This document shows positions 4,880-61,082 of a DNA stretch of 64,000 nucleotides, piece after piece. Position numbers and translations under genes: made by a program. Source of the DNA: Morinoia aosen (Eukaryota; Arthropoda; Malacostraca; Amphipoda; Talitridae); assembly GCA_030386875.1 (NCBI GenBank), contig CM059567.1, forward strand, positions 79,849,130-79,913,129, given 5' to 3'. How positions within the stretch are numbered: the first letter of the stretch is position 1; every line of letters starts with the position of its first letter. Under the pieces are notes generated by a model. The model saw nothing but the letters and a program-made list of their open reading frames with translations. It ran no database searches and was not told where the DNA came from.

Positions 4880-6437
4880 TGGGTAGAGACCTGATTGACT
4901 CCCTAGGTTGACTATAGTAGCGAACAATGTGCATAAGCTTGTTACCCAGCCCGAAGGGCTAGTAGAAAAATTTCCCAACCTTTTTCGACCAGGCCTAGGT
5001 TGCTTTAAGGGAAGGAATTTCAAAATTAAGATTGACCCCACAGTAGCACCAAAATTTTGTAAAGCCAGGATGTGCCTTACTCACTTAGACCTAAGGTGGA
5101 GGCAGAACTAGATAGACTGGTACAGGAAGGTATTCTCACCCCTGAACAGTACTCTAGAACAGTACCCAGAACAGTACTCAAAGCATCCGAATATGTGGTG
5201 ACTATAAATTAACTGTAAACTTCGCCTCTAGGCTAGATACCTACCCTATACCCAGGGTAGAAGATTTATTTAGCAGGTTAGCGGGGGGAGTTATATACTC
5301 CAAGCTAAACATGTCTCAAGCGTGCGCCCAACTACCTTTGGACGATGAATCTAAGGAGCTCACAGTGATCAACACCCACAGAAGTCTGTTTGCTTATAAT
5401 AGACTGAGCTTCGATATAGCTTCGGCCTCCGGAATCTTTCAGCGTGCTATGGAAGGACTATTACAGGGCTTCCCAGTAGTGTTCTGCTACCTCAATGATG
5501 TACTCGTCAGTGCAGCTAATGAGCAAGAACACTCCAAGCGTCTCCATCAAGTCAAATCTAAACTACAAGAGGCAGGGCTAAAACTGAAAATGGATGAATG
5601 TCAAATAGGAGTATCACAGGTATCCTACCTTGATTATCAGATTGACAAGGATGGGTTGCATCCCACTGCAGAGATGGTAGCAGCAATCTGGAAGGCACCA
5701 GCTCCTACTAATGTGACTCAGCTGAGAGCTTATCTGGGGTTACTCAATTTCTACAGAAAATTTCTAAAATCATCTGCAACTGTATTGGAGCCCCTAAATG
5801 CCTTACTGCGGGATAAAACTCCTTGGAAATGGGATGCAAGTCTGGAGAAGGCATTCCAGAAGTCTAAGAAAGCCCTCCTAGACTCCCAGACTATGACCCA
5901 TTTTGACCCTAATCTACCCATAGTGGTTATGGCTGACAGTAGTGCGTAAGGTTTGGGAGCGGTGCTGTGTCACCTTATTGTTGGAATTGAACGCCCCGCC
6001 TATTTTGCCTCCCGAACTCTAAAACAGCAACAGAGCGTAACTACTCTCAGACTGAGAAAGAAGCCTTGGCCATGGTTTTTGCTCTCCGAAAATTTCATTG
6101 CTACCTGTGGGGACAGGACTTCACGGTGATCACCGACCACAAACCCTTACTAGGACTATTTGGTCTGGGTAGGAACATCCCTCCGATGGCATCCGGGCGC
6201 ATTCTAAGGTGGGCTCTACTGCTGCAGTACCACAAGTTCACCTTGCGTCACCGGTCTGGCGTGCTGTTGGGCACGGCTGATGCTCTCAGTCGTTTACCTT
6301 TGACAACTCTTGAGGAAGCCACGCCCATTCCAGCGGAATGGACGTCCCTAGTAAACTTCTATGAGTCAGCTCTGGTCACTAGCACCCACATTCGCGACGG
6401 CACCCTAACGGACCCAGTACTTTCGAAAGTATACAAA
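4880..6437 (+). pseudogene. Gypsy pol: reverse transcriptase and RNase H (fossil)
   Basis: Recognisable RT blocks are followed by the region FQRAMEGLLQGFPVVFCYL with the active-site box just after it. The connection NFYRKFLKSSATVLEPLNALL is next, and RNase H shows VITDHKPLLGLFG and ADALSRLPL. The order is the usual one for Gypsy pol. The region is broken and ends at the solo LTR inserted at 6438. Confidence 0.82.
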
Positions 6438-8125
6438 TGTCACGAAACAGATGCGGCTGACGCCTACACTGTATTCGTAGTGAGGAATTTAAACCTCATA
6501 TTAGGAGTGAAAATGAAAGCACAGGGCGGAAGAAACACAGAATGGAGAAATGATAGAACAGGGGGGAAAATAGAGAAAAGTAGCTACTGATCCGCTCATC
6601 CACATCAGCTCCCAGGTCAACACGAAAAAATGAACCACACACTTAATAGAACATCATTGATTAATTTATTTAAGTGAGCTAATGGACACGTGAATTCGTA
6701 CGTTGATTTTATGACAAGTATATGACGAAACAAATGCAAGAAGCTTCCACTGATGCGATGCCCAACCTTTGCGTTACAGTCAACGATATGCAGGAAGAGA
6801 CACAGAACTACTCACAAATATCGCAAGCGCGCTCAACGAGATGAAAACACTTCACCGCTTCTCATAGTTAGCTCCTTGCAATATAGCCTCTGATTGCAAT
6901 ATAGCCTCTGATGGCGCCTGCACCGCCCGGCCAGCAACTTCCCTGTACGTAGATTGCTGGCTGGTCCCCATTTTGCGCACAGAGGTTTCACGACGAGCCC
7001 CTCTGCTCGCGTCATCGTGACGACAACTCGATGTGCCACCAAACGATTGGGGGATAACGTCTCCATCATCGTCATTCTTGTATCACTGCGATGCAGTCCC
7101 CAAGCCGCAGAGACTTCCCAGCTGCAGAGAATCCCAACCCTCCTCAGAACAAGGAACATTTTAAGTTTTCCCCCTTAATATGCCGGTTAATAACCCCTGA
7201 AAATTTCACGAGATCCCCCGCTAGATTCCTACCGAACATAATTATTTTTATCCGGATACATAATGAAAAACACAAGGAATCATTGATATAAGTTTAGTTT
7301 TATAATTGAGTTTACTTTACAGACAAAATCGCCTTTCCCCAAACAATGAATCGTTTAGCTGACTTAACGCATCTCATTCAACATGAATTCCCTCTGCAAA
7401 ATAATTAAATAATTATTCTACCCCCATATTAAATAAATGAAAATCACAGCGCCCCGCTTGACAACAACAATTGAATAAAAATACACAAATGCTGCCCTTC
7501 AATACGAACACGAATATTCTGATTCCCATGCATGCAAGTCACAGCGCCCCGCTTGAGGGCACCAATTGAATAAAAACATGAAGACTGCACTTCAATGACA
7601 CTTTCTAATTCACAACAGTATGCTTACCTCCCCTACATCTTGCACGGAACCCGCAGAAATAGACCAGCTCCTACCCTTGCTAACCATTTATAGTCCCCGC
7701 ACAAAGGACTCGCACCATGGGCTGTGCGGGATACCCGCCAAAATCCCTGATCTCCCATTGGTTCGATCTTGAGCGTCACTTCCTTTCTGCTATGTGTCCC
7801 CCACTTCAATCTAATATTACTACGCTCATCCCTCTAAAATACATAGATCCCTAGTTTCCTTACTCGTAGATCCCGAAATTTAAGCCTATGTTTTCTATGC
7901 TATTTATTTATGTTACAATAGCTCCCTTATGTACTCTGTTTTTTTTTCGCACTAGCTCTCAATATAGCTCCTATCCCCTACGTACTCCCCAATTTCTTTT
8001 GGTGTAGCCCATCCCTATTCCCCTCTCGGTCCGCTGACCCGCTCTCTCGCTGATTCTCGGCGCGCTTTTCGTTACGCATATTTACAATGTATCAATACTA
8101 CGCATATTTAAAATATATTATCACA
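6438..8125 (+). mobile_element. Solo LTR of a second LTR family, inserted in the Gypsy element
   Basis: This 1688-bp block starts TGTCACGAAACAG and ends ATATTATCACA, the TG...CA pattern of LTRs. It is bracketed by CAAA on both sides (6434-6437 and 8126-8129), as expected for a 4-bp target duplication. It contains no protein domain I can recognise. A solo LTR is what remains after recombination between the two LTRs of an inserted element. Family unknown. Confidence 0.72.
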
Positions 8126-9373
8126 CAAATACTGCCAGGTAGGCTGGCCTCCGACGGTAATTGGTGACCCTGATCTCGCTCCGTACACTAGGAGGAGAGA
8201 CGAATTGTCCACACAAAATGGCTGTGTGCTCTGGGGAGCAAAAACAATTGTGCCCCAAGCCCTCAGACAAGCTATTGTGGATGAAATTCTCTCTGGCCCT
8301 GCAGGATCATCCAGGATGAAGGAACTAGCCCGCAGCTACGTGTGGTGGTCCCTTCTGGAAAAAGATTTAGGAGAAACGACTAAGTCATGCAGCGAGTGCC
8401 TGAGCACTCGAACTGCACCGACGAAAGCTAAACTCCATCCGTGGGAATGGCCGCGAAGCCTTGGCATCGCATACACATCGACTACGCAGGCCCAATGGAT
8501 GGAAAATACTATTTAGTGATCGTGGATGCACACTATATGTGAGTTGAAATTTTTCAAACAAATACTACAACCTTTATCGAAACGATCTCGTGCCTGAAAC
8601 ACACTTTTGAAACGTTTGGATTTCCGGTAACAATTGTGTCGGACAACGCAACGTGTTTCACATCGGCTGAACTCCAAGAATTTGTGAAGGCATGTGGTAT
8701 GCGGCATATCACGAGCGCACCATACCATCTTTCAACTAATGGACAGGCAGAGCGCATGGTACAAACGTTCAAGAAGAATATACGAAAGTCAACGGGACCC
8801 CTATGCCTAGCACTGGACAGGTTCCTGTTCAACTATCGGCTAACACCCCACACGACAACGGGTGTTACGCCCGCCGAGCTGATGTTAGGCAGGAAAGTTT
8901 GCTCTCGTCTTGATCTACTTTGGCTGTCAGAAGCAATCGCTTCCAAAGTCGCTCAACGCCAGGACGCTCAGAAAAGATACCACCCAGGGTCTCGCGAGGT
9001 TGAACTTCCGCTGGAGTCACCTGTGATGGTCCGTCAATACACTCCGAGTTCCCCAAAATGGTCCCCTGTTACCACCGTTGAGAAAACGGACCCGGTGTCC
9101 TACAAGTGCCAACTGCAGGGGAGAGAGGTCGTTCGTCGACACCAGGACCAAGTTATTACCTGCTCGAACGCCATCCCAAAACCTATGGAACAACCTACTG
9201 AGGGAACCGTGTTGATTCCACAACCTACTCGAAATGCATACCCACCACCTCCGAATAAAGAACCTGACCCAGAAACACCTGACTACTCGATTCCCACCCA
9301 GGAGGCAAGGATGCGCGAGCCTCTAAGTGCTAGCATCTCAAGCAGGTCTAACCGGGCTCGGAAGCCTGTGGTG
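8126..9373 (+). pseudogene. Gypsy pol: integrase region (fossil)
   Basis: It holds the end of the HHCC-type zinc domain (SCSECLSTRTAPTK), catalytic-core segments (DNATCFTSAELQEF and YHLSTNGQAERMVQTFK) and NYRLTPHTTTGVTPAELM, then a C-terminal domain. These are typical of Gypsy integrases, which insert element cDNA into chromosomes. Degraded; part of the fossil described above. Confidence 0.82.
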
Positions 9374-9690
9374 AAAAGAAAAGAAAGAAAAAGAAAAAAT
9401 GTTTATTTCCAAGTTGCCACATGAGATACATGCCAACATATTGGCTTTTAAAAGTTTCTTAATATTGGACATCCTAAAACAAATGTTCCATACGAGGAAT
9501 ACTAATTGACAAACCATCCGTAGTGTACAAGTAGATAAGTCATACGAGGCATAATAATAGACAAACTATACGAGGTGTACTAATAGACAAACTATCAGAG
9601 GTGTACAAATAGATAGACCATACGAGGCATATAAATAGACAAAATACACGAGGCGTACTAATAGACAAACCATACGTGGCGTGCCAATAG
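9374..9690 (+). mobile_element. Short element with 26-bp array, copy B (8 units)
   Basis: Same organisation as copy A: an A/G-rich start, about 110 bp shared unique sequence, then eight 26-bp units. The first two units match those of the other copies best, and later units vary. It sits at the right edge of the Gypsy coding region. Confidence 0.75.
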
Positions 9691-18205: not shown

Positions 18206-19251
18206 AGACGTGTGGTCTGTCACCGTGAACGCACGCTCCATGCCACCGGAGCTAAATTGTTTCAGAATGTGAGGGAAGGAAAACTCCACGAAGTACGAAA
18301 TTAGAACTGAGTGTCCGTGAATGTGCCGTCTACCTAACTAAATGGTAAAAGTGAACTTTCTGTGTTTCGGTGATTCAATTATGATCATTTTAACAAGTAG
18401 ATCAGACCGGCGAGATGTGAAAACTCTGTATAGCCCTCGCAGTGCCGGTGAGGAACAGCGCGGACATGCTCACCCCTACCCCCTCCATCCCCCCTCCATC
18501 TCCGCTCCATCCCTTCAAAACACCCCAACTCTTAACGTGAAAGAACAAGTGCCGTTATCTCCAGAAACAAAATGGAAAGTGTGCTCTGTCAAACTCGCAT
18601 CTTTTGGAAAATAATGGTGACCATTTTTTTGTGAACTACTTTTTGTTACAATAGAGCATGAATGTTGAAAATTTCTAATGTACTCATTCAATTTCTGATT
18701 AAAAAAAAAATTAGCTTACCTTATTATCATGTTCTTTTGATGGACAATTTTGGTTAACTATTGACGTTATATGTGAGAAGGAGAAAAAACTTCTTCTTCT
18801 TTGAAGGAACTTTTAAATATAAAAATTAAATAAACTTGATCCAGCAACTTCGGAAATAATTTACCATGTTAAACATAGTAAGCCTGTGTTCACAGACAGA
18901 GCATAATTCCACAATGTGAAGTAAATTTGAACAATACGACGTTTCTCGAATAGTTCACCAAAGCAATCTTCTGATGGAAAAGTTGAAGTTCTTTTTTTTC
19001 TTCTCCCTTTTCTTCCCCAAGCAGGACAGCAAGCAACGCTGCTCTGCTCTGCCGACCGCAAGCATCCTGCCCCCTCCTCCCGCTCACACTCTGTCCTCCT
19101 CTGGCTTACACCCCAAGCCCCCCCCCCCCCCCCTTCCTTTCCTACTGGCAGTCTCTCTTTATCTACCTTTAAAAGGCGAGGTCTTCTACTTTAACCCAAT
19201 GAACAAAATTTAATTTTTTTTTTTTTTTTCTTCCTTTCTATCAACGTCACA
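18206..19251 (+). other. Probable PIF right end and LINE 5' leader
   Basis: The first 30 bases resemble an inverted PIF terminus. The rest leads to the LINE ORF1 start. It contains a C-rich segment ending in a run of about 16-18 C near 19118, a T run at 19214-19229, and an open frame at 18342-18614 with no domain. Where the LINE begins is not visible. Confidence 0.4.
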
Positions 19252-21900
19252 ATGTATCAATATAGAACTCGTTCAACTACTCGGAAGGTTGCCCAATCTG
19301 AAAAAACAACATCCTCCAGTACAGCTTCGTACGAAAAGCTCAGTAAAAAGCGCAAAGCATCAGCCATAAAGCGGAAAGGCAGACCTAATAAATCCGCCCC
19401 TGTAAATCCATCAGCTCAAGGTCCTCAAACACTCAAAACGAAAAATGCTTCTCGGACGTTCGTGAAGTCTGGTATCAGCAAGTGTTTCTCAGCCCCTGAA
19501 GCATCACTAATGACTGCAAAATCTGAGTCATCTGACACGGGCGAAAATCTCTCAGGCGCTGCTTGTAATAATTCAGCTCCCAGTAATAATTCATCTTCTC
19601 AAGTTCTGAAACCTGCTACTGGCACACCCGAAGCGAGTTCAAGAAATTACGTACAAGCAACACTCGACTCGCAACCCCACGCTTTGGACTGTGTCCGAGA
19701 AGACTCATCGTCCACAAAGCCGAGATTCTTCAGTAAAGAAGATACCGCGTCACTGGCGGAATCTGCCACAGCACTGAGAGCTCCTTCGTCTCGCCAAAAC
19801 GGTTGCGTCATGGCGACGTCGCCCCTGCCCTGCGTCACTGAGAAGGCTCAAAATCGTTCACCGCCGGCGGAAACACCAACGTCATCGTTAGAACGCGATA
19901 AAATTTTGGAAAGTAAAAGGGGTAATTTTAATTATAATTTTAACGATAAATTGTGTGTAGACCTTTCAGGTGGCGAAGTTATGTTTGAAAATGCATACGA
20001 AGCAGCTAATACTGGCAGTAAAATACCTCAGAGCGTAAACTGCGAGGATAACGTAAGATTTTCAGTGGAGAACAATACAAACGGACCTGTTACCGCTTTT
20101 GAGGGGTACTTACATCCTCTCCAAATGACCAGTTCTCAAACTATTCACGAAATAAATAACACGCTGTCTCTTACAGCTGCATTTCTCAATAAAGCTTTGA
20201 GACAAAATCGTCCCCCAAGCCCAGCGTCGATTTCTTCCACTGTATCAAATATTCAAGTGATTACAGAACAGCTTTTTGCTTTAAATTATCGTATCAGCGC
20301 TCATGATTTTACGCCGGTGGTAGCTGTGAGTAACCATCCTTATGCGAAACCCCCTTTAGACACTTTTCTCGTTGGAGACAATAGTCTCACAAAAATCAAC
20401 AGAGATGACATTGATAGTGCATGCAAAATTCAAACCATAACTTCGGAACGTCTCAATGATCTCTATGGTGAGATTGAACGCGCACCTCCTTTCAGGAACT
20501 ATATAATTAGTTTCAAAGGTTTGAGCCTCTCGTCCCAAAATCTCACCAAGTTAAAAAATCTGATCATGACAAAGAATCTTCTTTCTCGTATTTATGTGGT
20601 GAGTGCCTGCAGTGGGCAGCAATTGTACATGGCATCGAGCCTGTGCAGAAAAATAGGTCTTAAACTGATCCCGCTGCGAGCAAATGTAAAAACCGTTACT
20701 GTTAATGAAGCTTACAACAACGTCCGCACTTGGCCTGTTACGCGAGAAGACACGCATCATTTTCTTCAACAAATCGCTCTAAGATCACCTTTGAGACTAA
20801 CTTCACATTTTATCTCCTGTGTCAGAAACTCCCATGACCTGAATGAAGAAATTGAATACTCTAATGATGATGCAAAACAGCAAAATGAGTTGAATGATTG
20901 TTCTAAGTTGACCGCCTTTCCACGTGAAACCCTCGGGAGCATAAACCGATGTTTGCCTTCATATAAGAAACCCTCTCCCCCCCTCTCCTCCCCATGTTTG
21001 CCCTCATATAACAAGCCCTCTCCTGCATCTGCCACAGACAATTGCGGAGTGCCTACAAAAAATAGGTTTTCATTGCTATACAATGCTGATGCAGGGGATG
21101 AAAAGCCCCTCTTAGACACGAGTATAAACCAACATCCAATCACATACTCGGAAGCAGTGAAATCAACAGGAAGAGAGAAATCGCTGCAAAATTGCAGTCG
21201 ACAATCAATGGAAAACCCACAACCCAACTGTGTTCACAATCATCGCCAGAAAAATGGAATTGAAACGAGCATTTCTCAGTTCTATGCAAATCCCCATACA
21301 AGAATTCACCACAGCCCGCCCTTTCAGAGCCAGAAAAACGTAATTTCCCCGCACCTCTCAAAACCTCTTAATGACGTAAAAAGTACGCAAAAAAACGTCT
21401 CCAGCCCTATTTGTGAACGCATGAATTCCACAATGGAGGAATTGAAACGATCATGGAACATAAAACTGATTCCCACCAAAGCCGATGGACACTGCCTCCT
21501 CCATGCAGTAGCTCATCTACTTACAAAACAACCGGCATCAAATTGGAATTACAATTCCCTAAAGGCTGCAATCAAAACAGAGAGTAAAGCAAACTATAGC
21601 ACATATGCTAAGTTTTTCGACAAGAACAGTGGCGACATGCAAAACCTCATAGATAAATACATTGACGACAAACATTTTGATCAAGCTGTTGTAGACCTTA
21701 TACCACTAATCATTTCAAATGTGACACGCCAACAACTTCTCGTCCTGGATGAAAAAGACCATTGTGTTTTGAAAATACCAGTTAATCCCTTTTCAGAGTT
21801 ATCAAATAATAACCCTCCACTACTGCTCCATCGTAAAAGCGATCACTACAGTGCTCTTGTCACACAAGGCAAAAATCAGACCGGGATCACCCCATCTTGA
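19252..21900 (+). CDS. LINE ORF1 protein with C-terminal OTU-like cysteine protease domain
   Basis: 882 residues from an ATG placed after a T-rich tract. Residues 1-60 are basic (KKRKASAIKRKGRPNK, likely RNA or nuclear binding). Residues 60-280 are Ser/Pro/Thr-rich. Residues about 285-530 form a conserved block also present in the copy at 30276. It includes FLVGDNSLTKIN near 372, faintly like the first block of the SGNH esterases found in other CR1 ORF1s, but without the serine. Residues 725-880 resemble an OTU deubiquitinase: KADGHCLLHAV carries Asp745 and Cys748, and SDHYSALV carries His865, the expected catalytic set. A role in cleaving ubiquitin or processing its own protein is inference. 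The frame ends in TGA, directly followed in phase by ORF2. Confidence 0.8.
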   Translation: MYQYRTRSTTRKVAQSEKTTSSSTASYEKLSKKRKASAIKRKGRPNKSAPVNPSAQGPQTLKTKNASRTFVKSGISKCFSAPEASLMTAKSESSDTGENLSGAACNNSAPSNNSSSQVLKPATGTPEASSRNYVQATLDSQPHALDCVREDSSSTKPRFFSKEDTASLAESATALRAPSSRQNGCVMATSPLPCVTEKAQNRSPPAETPTSSLERDKILESKRGNFNYNFNDKLCVDLSGGEVMFENAYEAANTGSKIPQSVNCEDNVRFSVENNTNGPVTAFEGYLHPLQMTSSQTIHEINNTLSLTAAFLNKALRQNRPPSPASISSTVSNIQVITEQLFALNYRISAHDFTPVVAVSNHPYAKPPLDTFLVGDNSLTKINRDDIDSACKIQTITSERLNDLYGEIERAPPFRNYIISFKGLSLSSQNLTKLKNLIMTKNLLSRIYVVSACSGQQLYMASSLCRKIGLKLIPLRANVKTVTVNEAYNNVRTWPVTREDTHHFLQQIALRSPLRLTSHFISCVRNSHDLNEEIEYSNDDAKQQNELNDCSKLTAFPRETLGSINRCLPSYKKPSPPLSSPCLPSYNKPSPASATDNCGVPTKNRFSLLYNADAGDEKPLLDTSINQHPITYSEAVKSTGREKSLQNCSRQSMENPQPNCVHNHRQKNGIETSISQFYANPHTRIHHSPPFQSQKNVISPHLSKPLNDVKSTQKNVSSPICERMNSTMEELKRSWNIKLIPTKADGHCLLHAVAHLLTKQPASNWNYNSLKAAIKTESKANYSTYAKFFDKNSGDMQNLIDKYIDDKHFDQAVVDLIPLIISNVTRQQLLVLDEKDHCVLKIPVNPFSELSNNNPPLLLHRKSDHYSALVTQGKNQTGITPS

Positions 21901-24870
21901 CTGAGTGCCGCTGCCCAGCCAAATAGTAGACTTTCTTACATAGCAGAAGCTGGGCCAAACACCCTGGGCAACTTAGACAAAATCGATAAATCCCCTGAAC
22001 GATCCCATCGAAATAGTAACTTTGCTACCGTCAAAAAGAGTGCTAATATAGGTAAAATCAAAATTAAGCATGTAAATGCTCGAAGCCTGAATGGTAAATT
22101 GGATGAAATCAGAGTAATGTTGGTCACTGAAGAAATTGACATTTTGTGTGTCTCAGAAACATGGTTTGATTCACGAACCCAAAGTTCATTTTTTAACATT
22201 CCTGATTACGTGTTGTACCGCTACGATGGCGCTAAAACCAGCCGAGGTAGTGGATCTTGTATTTTTGTGAAAGAAATGTACTCAACATCTTCATTATTAG
22301 CGAATAAAGTTTGCGAAGGCATTGAAATGGTTTGGCTAGAAGCGCAAATAAATAAACACAAATCAATCATCATTGGCAGCCTTTACCGGCACCCATCGTC
22401 TCCCCTAAATCTAACACTAGATTTCATTGAGGAAACCTTCACAGAAATCCTTCAGGCAAAAAAATCATTCTTTGCTTTCGGAGATTTTAATGTTGACCTA
22501 ACGGACAAAAACAATCAGCTAAGCAAACTATTGTATAAACTAAGCTTATCACAAATGGTCAAAGAACCGACTCGCATCACTAAAGTCTCTGCAACTCTCC
22601 TCGATCTAGCAATCACAAATAATCCCACTGCAATACTTAGTACAGTAATATCACCTTCTATTTCCGATCACCACTCTATAGAATGTGAAATTAATATTGC
22701 AAAGGAAAGACAAAAATACCACTTAATGACCTATCGCTCGAAAAGGCACTATTCAGTAGAACTATTTCAAGAAAAACTTCTCGATAGGTCCACCGAATTC
22801 CAGAAAATGATGCAAACTGACGATGTTGACATTCAAGTGTCAATCTTCAACGAGAACTTCACAGCAGCTCTCAACGAATGTGCACCTTACGTTACCAAAA
22901 AAACCAAGCCAAAACGAACTGCTTGGATTACTGACGAAGTGAAAGATATGAGCAGAACAAAGAAAGCTAACTTGCGAGAGTACAAAAAAAATAGATCAAA
23001 CAGTACCTTGTACAAGAGATATAAAGAACATGAGAAAATTCTTCGAAAGAAAATCACTGAAGCGAAACAAACTCACTTCCACCGGGCACTGATAACGGCT
23101 AAAAATAACCCGAAACGAACTTGGGAAATCATTAGTGAGGTAGCCCCATATAAAAATCTAGATCGCAAAAGTAAATTTGAAAATCCCTTGGCAACAGCCA
23201 CAGATTTCAACACATTCTTTTCAAAAGTAGGGGCTCAAGTTTTCAGTGAGGTGTGTACCAATCCAGATGAAACGACAATTGAAAATTCATGCCCCACTGC
23301 ACCCTCGAGGACTGATGTCAAGTGGAGACCACGCCCTGTCGATTTACCGGAGTTACGAAACATCTTATACTCACTAAAACACACAAAGGCAGTTGGACAT
23401 GATGGTATCAGTCTTCAATATATCAAAGACAGTTTCCCTGTTACAGCACCATGGATTCGTCTGATAATTAATACATCAATAGCAACCAACATGTTTCCAA
23501 ACCAATGGAAACACTCCATTATTAGACCATTGCATAAAAGTGGTGACCTAAATACAGCATCAAACTACAGGCCCATCAGTCTTTTGCCTGTCATGTCAAA
23601 ACTATTAGAGAAAGTGGTGACGAATCAACTGTCGTTTCACCTGGACGAGTCAAATCTACTCCACCAAAATCAATATGCCTATAGAAGAAATACTAGCACT
23701 CAAGACGCTCTGCTCAATATCTCTGAAAAAATATACAGTGACATCGATCAAAAGAATGTAACACTCTTGCTGCTACTCGATCTCTCTAAGGCGTTCGATA
23801 GCGTCGAACATAATAGACTTCTACGTAAAATACTGAACTTGGGAATAGACACGCAATGGTTTGAAAGTTACTTGTCAAACCGATCTCATGCAGTCCGCAT
23901 AGAAAACAAATTGTCCCCATTCATTCAAAACAATTTTGGTGTTCCCCAAGGATCAATTCTTGGTCCGCTACTGTTTTCTATTTTCATAAATGATTTCCCT
24001 CCAATGCCTTCTAACACACGGATCTCGATGTATGCAGATGATGTTCAAATTGCAATAACAAGTTCTGTATCGGAAATACCACAGACGCAAATTAAAGCCG
24101 AAACTTTACTGACTAGCCTGAAATCATGGTACGACCGAAATGGTCTTAAATTAAATGCTAATAAAACACAATGCATTATTTTTGGATCCAAAGATGCAAT
24201 TAAAAAAACTTCAGATCTTACTCTTGCAGTTGGAAATGATAAAATAAATGCATCAGAAAAAGTTAAAAATCTAGGAATCTGGTTCGATAGAAATATGTCC
24301 TTCAAATCTCACGTTGAGACTACTTGCAACAAAATCTACGGAACTTTAATGTTTTTTCATCGTATAAAAAGTATGCTAGACGAAAAATCCAGATTATTAG
24401 CAATTCAATCCCTTGTGTTATCACGCATTGACTACTGCAGCCTAGTATGGGGAGACTTACCTAAATACCTTCAAAGGGACTTACAAAAGTGCATGAATTT
24501 TGCAGCGAAGGTGGTATGCAACGGTAATTTCAAAAGAAGTGACCACGTAACCCCTCTCCTCAATAAACTCGGCTGGATTCCTATCCAAGAAAGGCTCCTC
24601 TTGCAGAAGGCCCAATACGTATTCTCCTCGTTATATCTTCCTCAGAGCAATGCTGAGATAGTGTGTTTCCATCCACCCACTGCAACCAATCAAAAACCGA
24701 ATAGAAACAAAAATGTCTTAGTCAACTATCGTTCATCTCGCTTAGGGCAGAAGGCTCTGTCCATATCAGGCGCTTTACTGTGGAACAAACTTCCCCTGAG
24801 TATTAAAGTCCCTCAAAGACCGAGAGAATTTAAAGCCAAAATAACTCGTCATCTAGCGTCTCAAGAATAA
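21901..24870 (+). CDS. LINE ORF2: endonuclease and reverse transcriptase
   Basis: This frame continues ORF1 in phase after its TGA and is open for 989 codons. The APE-type endonuclease begins at HVNARSLNGKLDEI (near 22069) and shows CVSETWFD, GSLYRHPSS, FGDFNVDL and SDHHSIE. The RT follows: YRPISLLPVMSKLLEKVV, LLLLDLSKAFDSVEH, FGVPQGSILGPLLFSIFIND, then MYADDVQIAI with the catalytic YADD at 24031. The C-terminal part ends SGALLWNKLP...HLASQE. There is no RNase H domain, as in CR1/Jockey elements. The first in-frame ATG (22117) lies after the conserved endonuclease Asn, so translation probably depends on reading through the TGA. Start given as the first codon after that stop. Confidence 0.9.
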   Translation: MSAAAQPNSRLSYIAEAGPNTLGNLDKIDKSPERSHRNSNFATVKKSANIGKIKIKHVNARSLNGKLDEIRVMLVTEEIDILCVSETWFDSRTQSSFFNIPDYVLYRYDGAKTSRGSGSCIFVKEMYSTSSLLANKVCEGIEMVWLEAQINKHKSIIIGSLYRHPSSPLNLTLDFIEETFTEILQAKKSFFAFGDFNVDLTDKNNQLSKLLYKLSLSQMVKEPTRITKVSATLLDLAITNNPTAILSTVISPSISDHHSIECEINIAKERQKYHLMTYRSKRHYSVELFQEKLLDRSTEFQKMMQTDDVDIQVSIFNENFTAALNECAPYVTKKTKPKRTAWITDEVKDMSRTKKANLREYKKNRSNSTLYKRYKEHEKILRKKITEAKQTHFHRALITAKNNPKRTWEIISEVAPYKNLDRKSKFENPLATATDFNTFFSKVGAQVFSEVCTNPDETTIENSCPTAPSRTDVKWRPRPVDLPELRNILYSLKHTKAVGHDGISLQYIKDSFPVTAPWIRLIINTSIATNMFPNQWKHSIIRPLHKSGDLNTASNYRPISLLPVMSKLLEKVVTNQLSFHLDESNLLHQNQYAYRRNTSTQDALLNISEKIYSDIDQKNVTLLLLLDLSKAFDSVEHNRLLRKILNLGIDTQWFESYLSNRSHAVRIENKLSPFIQNNFGVPQGSILGPLLFSIFINDFPPMPSNTRISMYADDVQIAITSSVSEIPQTQIKAETLLTSLKSWYDRNGLKLNANKTQCIIFGSKDAIKKTSDLTLAVGNDKINASEKVKNLGIWFDRNMSFKSHVETTCNKIYGTLMFFHRIKSMLDEKSRLLAIQSLVLSRIDYCSLVWGDLPKYLQRDLQKCMNFAAKVVCNGNFKRSDHVTPLLNKLGWIPIQERLLLQKAQYVFSSLYLPQSNAEIVCFHPPTATNQKPNRNKNVLVNYRSSRLGQKALSISGALLWNKLPLSIKVPQRPREFKAKITRHLASQE

Positions 24871-26509
24871 TTCTTAGTTACAGAACACACAAAATAAGTC
24901 CTGTCGAATCTCATTTGCCTGGTATCTCCATTGCTCAAAAATCTCCCTCGCTTATTGTTTTATAATACAAGATATCACAAAACAGTTTTAGAGTAAGCGT
25001 AGGTAGTGTGATTTGATCGCCTATACGCTGCCGTCTGCAAACATGCTTACTTGAATATGTGTGTACGTATATAGGTGTATGTGGGCATATGGGTGTGCAC
25101 ATGTGCACGTATGCACCTGTGTGCACTAGAGTAGATAAACCAATCGAAGGTTGCATTTTATGTCATTCCTCTCCATTTCTGTGCAAGCATCAAACTAGAC
25201 CGTCATGCATGGTACCTATGTGTGTGTGTGTGTTTATCAATTGCAGACATTCTGCACCATACTACAAAGATATTGTGATTTACTCTCTAATTTGAAATTG
25301 TAAAGCAACCATGTATAAAAAGCAATAAATTCGTTGCGTGATCACCCACTTATACTGCAGTATTATGCTTATAGTTATATGCTTATAATAATGTGATTCC
25401 TATGTCTGTTTATCAATTGCCGACAATTTGCGCCATATTTCAAAGATAATGCGATTTTCTTTTCTAATATGAAACCTTTATAGGACATTAATGTTTTCTT
25501 TCTTATTCACATCCCAAAATCGTTTTCATGTTTCAGACTTAGGTAGACTGTTTTGTGCCACTATTTGTAGTACGAAATTTTATAAAATTCATGCCATAAT
25601 AAAAGATATTTTCTCCGTTTCCCTCGATTGGAATTTCTGGTTTATAATGACTGGTTTTACACTGATATTCGCGCACATGCTTACTTGTATAAATCTGTAC
25701 GTGTGCACGCTGTGCGTATGACACTAAATAGAATGCGTATGTATTGCTTCGATGAATAGAAATGCATTTGTGTATCCTTACGAGTTTGGTGTAATTATGT
25801 GCGTGCATGTGTATATGTATATATTTGCGTGTATATGTGCACACATGTGTGTACTAGACTGACAACTAGCATTTTACTGAAGATAATGGTCTTTTTTCTG
25901 TTTACTCTCAACTTGTAACATTACCTTACTCGTCTTGTCTTTATTATTGTAAAGCATTCATGTAAAAACTATACATTTGTTGTGCGATCATCCACTTTTT
26001 GTTTAAATAAAATGCTTATCAACTAATGACCGCTATGTTAAAATTGTTGGATTAGAAATACAAAACTTATTATCTTCTTGGTCCTCATGCTTATGTGTAC
26101 GTGTATACATGTATATGTATGTGTGTATATGTACATGTATGTATATGTATGAATATATATGTGTGTGTATATGTATACGGATGTATATTTATATATACAT
26201 ATATTTTTTCATGCTTCCTCACAATGACACTTTTGAACATTGGCCGAAACAAGCGATTCATGTATTATTTCCTGGCTTCAAGAATTGCGAAGTTTTATGT
26301 CATGTACATGTAAACTGTCAAAAATGTTTTCACCTCACAATGAAAATGCATCGTCCATGAAATTGTGTTGTCTCTTATAATTATCATTACATGTATTATC
26401 AAATGTAGATTAAGCAAGATTAGGAGTACATTGCCCTCAATCTTTCTTTTCGACTAGTGACACGAGTTTTACAATACTCGTGTGTGTGTATCATCTAAAT
26501 GTATTAATT
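24871..26509 (+). repeat. Degenerate long tandem repeats
   Basis: Blocks recur along this stretch. ACATGCTTACTTG occurs near 25041 and 25676. A block with TTTATCAATTG, GACA and CACCATA/CGCCATA occurs at 25228-25300 and 25402-25474. A block with TGTAAAGCA, CATGTA, CGTTGCGTGATCA or TTGTGCGATCA occurs at 25292-25380 and 25948-26020. They suggest an old array with units of roughly 650 bp. No gene is seen. Confidence 0.55.
26090..26205 (+). repeat. TATG/TGTA microsatellite
   Basis: Simple repeat of TATG, TGTG and TATA steps. Open frames through it are trivial low-complexity translations. Confidence 0.85.
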
Positions 26510-27010
26510 TTAAGAGATTTTAAAAACCAATGATGGTACTTTTGTACCATCTATATTGGAAATATACTGTTTTTCTTTTTTTTTTTTTTTCTTTCTTTCT
26601 TTGATAATATTAAATATGCACGGTGCTATTATATCAGCTATAGCCTTAATAACTTTATCTGAGAATGTATTTAATCCATTTGATTTACTTTTCAAGTTGT
26701 TTATGCACGTAATTACATCGGAAGGATTAGTTGGCGTGAAAAGGAAAGAGTTGTGTTCACGGACATGGTCCATGTATTGCAAGTGGTCTGTAGGTTCACT
26801 TACGAGACTATCGGCTATATTTTCCCTATATTTATAAAAAAGTTGTTAAACACTGCTGCAATATCTTGTTTATCGTGACATTTTACATTTTCGTGAACGA
26901 TGGACTCAATTGATTTTGTATCATTATTATTCGATCTATAGCATGAATTAAGCAGGCGCCAAGTTTGTTAATATCAGTTTTGTATTCAGTAAATTTGCGC
27001 GTAAAGTAGT
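26510..27010 (-). mobile_element. LINE fragment, segment upstream of the RT core
   Basis: The reverse strand gives FNNFFIKYRENIADS (upstream of the listed frame) and TNPSDVITCINNLKSKSNGLNTFSDK, then IIAPCIFNI. This is the region just before the first RT motif in CR1/L2-like LINEs. It is the part missing from the 16640-18205 copy and may be of the same family. The open frame ends in a T/C-rich run at 26575-26600. Confidence 0.7.
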
Positions 27011-46470: not shown

Positions 46471-46544
46471 AGAGCCTACAGGGATTTGAACCCCAACCTT
46501 TCACTCATTCAGAGTGAACGCTCTTCCGTTAAGCTATAAGCTCC
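46471..46544 (-). tRNA. tRNA-like sequence (anticodon GAA by position) or SINE head
   Basis: The reverse strand folds as a cloverleaf of about 74 nt. It has a six-pair acceptor stem (GAGCTT/AGGCTC, one G-U), a D arm in TAGCTTAACGG...AGAGC and an anticodon stem TCACT/AGTGA around the loop CTGAATG. The T arm GGGG-TTCAAAT-CCCT follows. A box TAGCTTAACGG and B box GGTTCAAATCC fit the consensus. The sequence is not a typical animal tRNA-Phe, so a tRNA pseudogene or SINE promoter is more likely than a working gene. Confidence 0.5.
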
Positions 46545-59592: not shown

Positions 59593-61082
59593 CAGGGTGT
59601 TTCAAAAATACACGGCATAATTTCAGGTATGTATTTCCCACATGTAGACAATCAAAATAGTTCATTACAACATATGTCCGGAAATGCTTCATTTCCGAGT
59701 TATGGCCTTCACAACATTGAAATTCACCGGAACGTTTTTCTTTCCGCAGGTCGTTGCCGTCAAAGGACACATTAAGAGGGCACTCTGACAGATCATTCCT
59801 AGGCGAAGGTTAAATTCAGTGTTGTGTTTGGCGTTCGACTGTGTGTCATGTACACAAATCAGGAGCTGGCAGAGATGCACTTGATCTACGGTAAGGCAGA
59901 CGGCAATGCTGCGCTGGCTCGTCGTTTGTACCAGGAGAGGTACCCACAGCGACAATGTCCAGATCGGAAGACATTTGTAAGTCTCCATCAGCGTCTGTGC
60001 GAGTATGGAAAATTTGACTCTCCTGGATTGGGAAGGGGACGACCAAGATCTACAACTCCAGAAGAACAGGAGGAGATTCTGGAGATTGTGAACAGAACTC
60101 CTTCTATCAGCACACGAAGGTTAGCGTTGCAAGTGAATGTTCCCCATACGACTGTCTGGAGACTGCTGAAAGAGTATCAATTGTATCCTTACCATTTGCA
60201 ACGTGTACAGGCGCTGTCACCAGCAGATTACCCTGCACGAGTTAGGTACTGTCAGTGGTTCTTGCAGCAATGTGCTGCAAATCCGAACTTTCCTGCCTTA
60301 GTATTATTTACAGATGAAGCACAGTTCACACGAGATGGCATAACAAATCTCCACAATCAGCATGTATGGGCGTATGAAAACCCAAATGCAACTGTTGTAT
60401 CTCATCACCAGGTGCGGTTCTCCCTCAACATGTGGGCCGGTATCATTGGTGATCGGTTAGTTGGACCCCATGTACTTGTAAACAGACTTACGGGGCAGGC
60501 GTACACAAACTTCCTGGAAAACATCATACCTGATGTTTATGACGACACTCCACTGATCGATCGTCAGCACGCTCACTTCTTGCATGACGGCGCTCCTGCA
60601 CACTTCAGTCGTACGGCTCGCCGGTACTTGGATCGAAGATTTCCTGATCGATGGATAGGTAGAGGTGGCCCAATTGCTTGGCCTCCACGCTCACCTGATC
60701 TGAACCCTCTCGATTTCTACTTGTGGGGCCATTTAAAATCATTGGTTTATTCGTCTCCGGTGCCTGATTTGGAATCCCTTCGGAATCGAATTGTGGCACG
60801 CTCTGAGGACATACGCAACATTCCTGGAGTGTGGGATCGTGTTCGCAGGTCAATGAGACATCGATGTGAGGTCTGTATTCAAGCAGGAGGTGGTCATTTT
60901 GAACATCTTCTGTAATGGCAACGACCTGCGGAAAGAAAAACGTTCCGGTGAATTTCAATGTTGTGAAGGCCATAACTCGGAAATGAAGCATTTCCGGACA
61001 TATGTTGTAATGAACTATTTTGATTGTCTACATGTGGGAAATACATACCTGAAATTATGCCGTGTATTTTTGAAACACCCTG
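59593..61082 (+). mobile_element. Intact mariner-family (DD41D) transposon
   Basis: 1490 bp with perfect 166-bp inverted repeats (59593-59758 and 60917-61082) starting CAGGGTGTTTC and a TA duplication at both ends. It encodes one uninterrupted transposase. Perfect repeats and an open gene suggest recent movement. It inserted in the right arm of the giant palindrome. Confidence 0.93.
59848..60915 (+). CDS. Mariner-family DD41D transposase
   Basis: 355 residues from the first ATG (MYTNQELAEMHLIYG). The frame is open a little further upstream but without an ATG. Residues 1-60 are the DUF4817-type helix-turn-helix that binds the inverted repeats. Residues about 65-125 form a second helix-turn-helix with GRGRPRSTTPEEQ (GRPR hook) and VPHTTVWRLLKEYQLYPYH. 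The DDE core has LFTDEAQF (Asp156), LHDGAPAHF (Asp247) and SPDLNPLDFYLWG (Asp289). There are 41 residues between the last two, the DD41D spacing of rosa-like elements. It cuts and pastes the element at TA sites in the nucleus. No damage seen. Confidence 0.93.
   Translation: MYTNQELAEMHLIYGKADGNAALARRLYQERYPQRQCPDRKTFVSLHQRLCEYGKFDSPGLGRGRPRSTTPEEQEEILEIVNRTPSISTRRLALQVNVPHTTVWRLLKEYQLYPYHLQRVQALSPADYPARVRYCQWFLQQCAANPNFPALVLFTDEAQFTRDGITNLHNQHVWAYENPNATVVSHHQVRFSLNMWAGIIGDRLVGPHVLVNRLTGQAYTNFLENIIPDVYDDTPLIDRQHAHFLHDGAPAHFSRTARRYLDRRFPDRWIGRGGPIAWPPRSPDLNPLDFYLWGHLKSLVYSSPVPDLESLRNRIVARSEDIRNIPGVWDRVRRSMRHRCEVCIQAGGGHFEHLL

Follow-up and report, generated by a model that had tools for sequence, protein, structure and literature searches.

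How LINEs translate their second open reading frame is poorly settled. SART1 and L1 carry two ORFs on one RNA, with the endonuclease and reverse transcriptase (EN-RT) in ORF2, and ribosomes are believed to gain access to this ORF by reinitiating at an AUG or close to one (PMC5972666). The Group 3 LINEs of Paramecium have ORF1 and ORF2 in one frame and readthrough of the ORF1 stop has been suggested as the way to ORF2, so that the idea of readthrough at a LINE ORF1 stop is itself already known from that work (PMC5405496). In some retroviruses, readthrough of the gag stop sets the ratio of the products (PMC5009743). Stops in the context UGAC are known to be leaky, and viral readthrough sites commonly have a 3' structure some 8 nt past the stop (PMC3542737). 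A LINE family with a conserved UGA between two in-phase ORFs, and with no AUG ahead of the endonuclease, provides a clean natural test of readthrough versus reinitiation, and the element described here belongs to such a family.

The copy under study lies within a 64,000-nt stretch of contig CM059567.1 of the amphipod Morinoia aosen (hereafter the window, whose numbering is used throughout), on its + strand, as do all the parts of the element given below. Matches to other genomic copies placed the 5' end of the repeated unit at about 18206-18228 and its 3' end at about 26573-26608, and the extent common to other copies, 18212..26605, was taken as the whole LINE copy (about 8.4 kb). The preliminary description had delimited the element as 19252..24870, an interval which does contain both ORFs but covers only part of this larger unit. 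A 5' leader of about 1.0 kb (18212..19251) precedes ORF1 (19252..21897; 882 codons, ATG at 19252), a TGA follows (21898..21900), and ORF2 is then open for 989 codons (21901-24867) up to its stop at 24868-24870. Downstream lie a 3' UTR (24871..26569, about 1.7 kb) and a T-rich 3' tail containing TTTC repeats, not poly(A) (26570..26605). A second tandem unit of about 0.5 kb from the 3' end (window 26075-26573) adjoined 6 of the 40 copies scored (C21:87780142, C2:37868995, C12:44487988, C14:60465458, C6:17158575 and C27:17498947) and a shorter tandem piece of the 3' end was seen in 2 more of the 40; the tail may have been copied more than once to give these units. Elsewhere in the window we noticed broken pieces of an LTR-type retroelement (5158-9424, + strand), with matches to RT, RNase H and an integrase core spread over three ORFs, a Tc1/mariner-like 370-aa ORF (59803-60912) with transposase-like matches (DUF4817, HTH_Tnp_Tc3_2 and DDE_3), and an Rfam tRNA match on the - strand (46471-46543).

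ORF2 starts with an open 54-codon linker devoid of ATG (21901..22062) and encodes an APE-type endonuclease (22072..22671; PF03372, Exo_endo_phos, E 8.6e-06) followed by a reverse transcriptase (23542..24282; PF00078, RVT_1, E 7.5e-38), both above the Pfam cut-off. This order of APE-like EN and then RT is the one expected of APE-type LINEs, as are dispersed copies, many of them 5'-shortened, with a common 3' end (26573-26608): all 39 copies fetched reached the 3' end of the query, and the matches of 15 of them started inside it, at positions from 19008 to 21573. The element is a young, high-copy APE-type LINE (non-LTR retrotransposon). Comparison of ORF2 with the sequences of solved structures returned RT matches only (best 8c8j), and these do not settle its clade, CR1 or other. 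Two claims made previously about the coding frames held when re-examined: ORF1 and the 989 open codons of ORF2 share one phase and are parted by the TGA at 21898, and the first in-frame ATG of ORF2 (22117..22119, codon 73; ATA in copy L048) lies downstream of the endonuclease asparagine in HVNARSL (codon 59, 22075-22077).

Close to the TGA, the C-terminus of ORF1 contains a weak OTU-like cysteine protease domain (21478..21858). The Pfam OTU model (PF02338) matched below its cut-off of 23.3 bits, whether whole ORF1 (17.5 bits, E 0.006) or its C-terminal 170 aa (20.5 bits, E 7.3e-4) was compared. Within this region we found a candidate cysteine (DGHC, 21493-21495) and a candidate histidine (HY, 21844-21846); cysteine and histidine are the catalytic residues of OTU proteases. 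Against solved-structure sequences the region showed weak similarity to VCPIP1 and EschOTU, and the best match of whole ORF1 had an E value of 0.57 and an unrelated name. In the fused ORF1-OTU-EN-RT plan named earlier, the EN and RT parts have above-threshold matches and the OTU part a match below threshold. No LINE with an OTU domain appeared among the matches listed in a literature search that reached few subscription journals and no repeat database.

Conservation of the junction was studied in a genome of 2.0 Gb (29 contigs), in which 40 copies were scored out of 1569 candidates, showing 98-100% identity over 601 bases and including the window copy. The junction codon was TGA in 40/40 aligned copies, and the codon behind it was CAG in 37 and CTG in the remaining 3 (window, L009 and L010); a longer pattern placed this CTG subgroup at 3 exact genome places. 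The context TGA CTG A, given before as that of the element, is therefore correct for the window copy and a minority variant of TGA CAG A in the family. A CTG right after the stop was discarded as a general non-AUG start, this position being occupied by CAG in most copies. Two minority bases of the window copy, at 21657 and 21733, were each found in 3/40 copies, which may be the same three. The ORF2 frame was complete in 35/40 copies, at least 882 codons were open before the TGA in 24/40 and both frames were open in 23/40; these open-frame counts ignored the ORF1 start codon, and matches starting inside the query were those of 15/39 fetched copies, as noted above. Such numbers of full ORF2 frames and of copies with both frames open indicate that TGA-bearing copies have spread recently. 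Genome-wide, the exact flanks with any codon at the stop occurred at 679 places, 674 of them with TGA (the codon of the other 5 fell outside the matches listed), and when up to 3 mismatches were allowed, 1143 places were found, with TGA in 100/100 among the matches listed. These patterns demanded CAR after the stop, and the CTG subgroup is outside all three counts.

Relatives were then sought with a degenerate OTU pattern that excluded the codon used by the family itself. It found 18, and after fetching the 18 junctions four were dropped for giving no alignment there (L049, L050, L055 and L065). TGA-CA was present in 13 of the 14 alignable relatives, the exception being the decayed L061. The lineage of the window accounted for seven of the 13 (92-96% identity). 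The other six formed a sister lineage, with 53-68% identity over 361 bases, which in some copies run into unlike flanks, and about 37% divergence from the window in the linker. A sister-lineage pattern occurred at 433 places, where 95/100 among the matches listed had TGA, 2 CGA, 1 TGG, 1 TGC and 1 AGA. The sister linker also served as a protein query, for which 150 of 2032 candidates were scored; the longest open frame among the 150 rows was 992 aa, reached in 9 of them, which fits an ORF2 limited by an upstream stop. One of these 992-aa-frame copies, L067, read over 801 bases, had TGA-CAA and no ATG before the endonuclease, and three further copies picked from the 150 rows had TGA (2) or CGA (1). 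The sister lineage therefore keeps an in-frame TGA-CAA/CAG. The sense codons seen at the junction (5/100 sister places listed, L069 and L061) all differed from TGA by a single base, the pattern that decay would leave. In the sister lineage an ATG overlaps the stop (ATGA), but it was rejected as a start, lying in another frame that closes soon and being missing in L068. A search for a third lineage with an EN pattern gave no match and no relative was confirmed in viral contigs or other genome contigs; the lineages sampled are these two.

In the copies read from both lineages, UGA-C, a common phase and a 54-codon linker with neither indel nor stop were found, with no ATG ahead of the endonuclease; related elements thus retain an in-phase UGA between their ORFs, as in programmed readthrough. 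The preliminary description had set out that a conserved TGA with conserved flanks would speak for readthrough and a sense codon in most copies for one fused ORF, and the alignment across the junction gave the former, with no sense-codon majority. It had also named an ATG-started or frame-shifted ORF2 as the contrary outcome; none of the junctions read had an ATG-started ORF2, and frame breaks were confined to decayed copies.

To what extent the linker behaves as coding sequence was judged by comparing the two lineages. In its 162 nt, 59 differences separated L011 from L067 and 60 separated the window copy from L067, without any indel or in-frame stop, and codons 1-72 of ORF2 contained no ATG in either L011 or L067. 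The NG86 dN/dS was 0.15 in the endonuclease part, a clear constraint, and 0.67 in the linker, a weak one, with 0.28 for codons 1-21 and 1.11 for codons 22-54. In simulations, neither amino-acid identity nor third-position excess was significant for codons 1-21 (P 0.69 and 0.087) or for codons 1-30 (P 0.32 and 0.089), and selection on codons 1-21 was accordingly set aside as a proof of translation. Eight comparisons among decayed copies yielded 8 indel events per 193 substitutions, a rate at which the missing linker indels are suggestive only.

A possible 9-bp RNA stem was found past the stop, with its 5' arm at 21910..21918, beginning 9 nt after the TGA, and its 3' arm at 21964..21972. Both lineages are able to form it, with 8/9 pairs in the window copy and 9/9 in L067. 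A choice of five of the available junctions was subjected to codon-column shuffling (n=1000): a common stem with at least 8/9 pairs starting 6-13 nt past the stop arose in 7/1000 shuffles when two sequences were used and in 2/1000 when all five, which are related, were used, and the consensus-fold energy was matched in 2.1-7.2% and 0-0.4% of shuffles, respectively. The arms were also better conserved than the remaining linker positions (2/18 versus 57/144 differences, P 0.019). Across ten chosen junctions 88.9% of the cells pair, yet no two-sided compensatory change was observed; the stem is broken in L064 and L061 through indel or decay, the minimum-energy fold of the window copy itself uses another hairpin, and single-sequence fold z-scores were weak (-1.44 and -0.58). 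A stem about 9 nt downstream of the stop may help readthrough. As its 3' arm also contains the conserved CUG at 21964 (codon 22), conservation of this codon can be read either way, as part of a stem or as a start codon.

Several explanations must be weighed against each other. Under the earlier suggestion of a recent nonsense change in a single long ORF, the window copy would be a broken fusion, which would fit the shared phase and nothing else; TGA in 40/40 copies, at 674/679 exact-flank places and at 95/100 listed places of the sister lineage refutes it, leaving its probability negligible. Equally hard to credit is selenocysteine insertion, for which the codon is indeed UGA but no Rfam SECIS family reached the gathering score within the window. 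A change at the RNA level, whether A-to-I editing that turns UGA into UGG or a splice that spans the stop, has nothing direct in its favour beyond stop editing being known in other systems (PMC3542737), and an element copied by its own RT from edited or spliced RNA would leave TGG or deleted copies behind. TGG was found at only 1/100 sister places listed and at 0/100 of those listed among the 1143 places with up to 3 mismatches, and we consider this explanation very improbable.

The main rival of readthrough is termination followed by non-AUG reinitiation in the linker, which would yield an ORF2p free of ORF1; the most plausible site is the CUG of codon 22, located 63 nt beyond the stop. CTG GGC AAC at this position is identical in L011 and L067, and the bases at -3 (A) and +4 (G) constitute a favourable start context. 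Reinitiation has been described for SART1 and was proposed for L1 with a spacer of 63 nt (PMC5972666). Reinitiation, though, leaves unexplained why the two ORFs keep a common phase and why, in either lineage, codons 1-21 have remained open and without indels, modest as these signals are, and the linker past codon 22 is not more constrained as protein (dN/dS 1.11, see above). We therefore hold it to be unlikely.

Readthrough of the leaky UGA-C at the ORF1 stop is the best explanation for EN-RT expression and, in our judgement, a probable one. It accounts most simply for the phase common to both ORFs, for the UGA being conserved and for the missing AUG, and the open linker and the recurrence of the whole arrangement in two lineages favour it as well; a precedent against it is the LTR element Tca2, for which a similar prediction of readthrough failed in a reporter test (PMC7175516). 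Most ribosomes would terminate on reaching the UGA, so that ORF1p is released together with the OTU-like tail, while a minority would insert an amino acid at this UGA-C and go on to produce an ORF1-linker-EN-RT fusion, possibly aided by the stem some 9 nt further on. The sequence arrangement itself is observed in both lineages; the occurrence and frequency of readthrough, the part played by the stem and what becomes of the fusion are inferred from it. EN-RT would then be tied to ORF1p and made in a set ratio to it, as with retroviral gag (PMC5009743). A more elaborate, virus-like version of readthrough, in which the stem aids decoding of UGA-C and the minority ORF1-OTU-EN-RT polyprotein is processed or deubiquitinated by the adjacent OTU-like protease, appears quite doubtful as a whole; if true, it would likewise fix the ratio of ORF1p to EN-RT in the manner of gag readthrough in some retroviruses.

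Set beside the described systems, the family shares with SART1 and L1 the placing of EN-RT in a second ORF, but the AUG at or near which ORF2 translation is thought to reinitiate in those elements (PMC5972666) has no counterpart here ahead of the endonuclease. Among other mobile elements, helentrons are reported to carry both an AP endonuclease and an OTU-like protease, but they are rolling-circle DNA transposons and not retrotransposons (PMC6431247). The Group 3 LINEs of Paramecium also have ORF1 and ORF2 in one frame and differ in belonging to a ciliate and to a distinct clade and in the zinc finger of their ORF1, with no OTU domain mentioned in the available text of that study (PMC5405496). 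In the stop region itself, the likeness is to viral type II UGA readthrough sites, such as those of alphaviruses, and lies in the UGA-C, in an enzyme-bearing extension and in a 3' structure some 8-9 nt past the stop, a possible one in the present family (PMC3542737). At viral type II sites the next triplet is CGG or CUA (PMC3542737), whereas in the present family it is CAG or CAA, or CTG in 3/40 copies, the structure is a predicted one and the carrier is a LINE instead of a virus.
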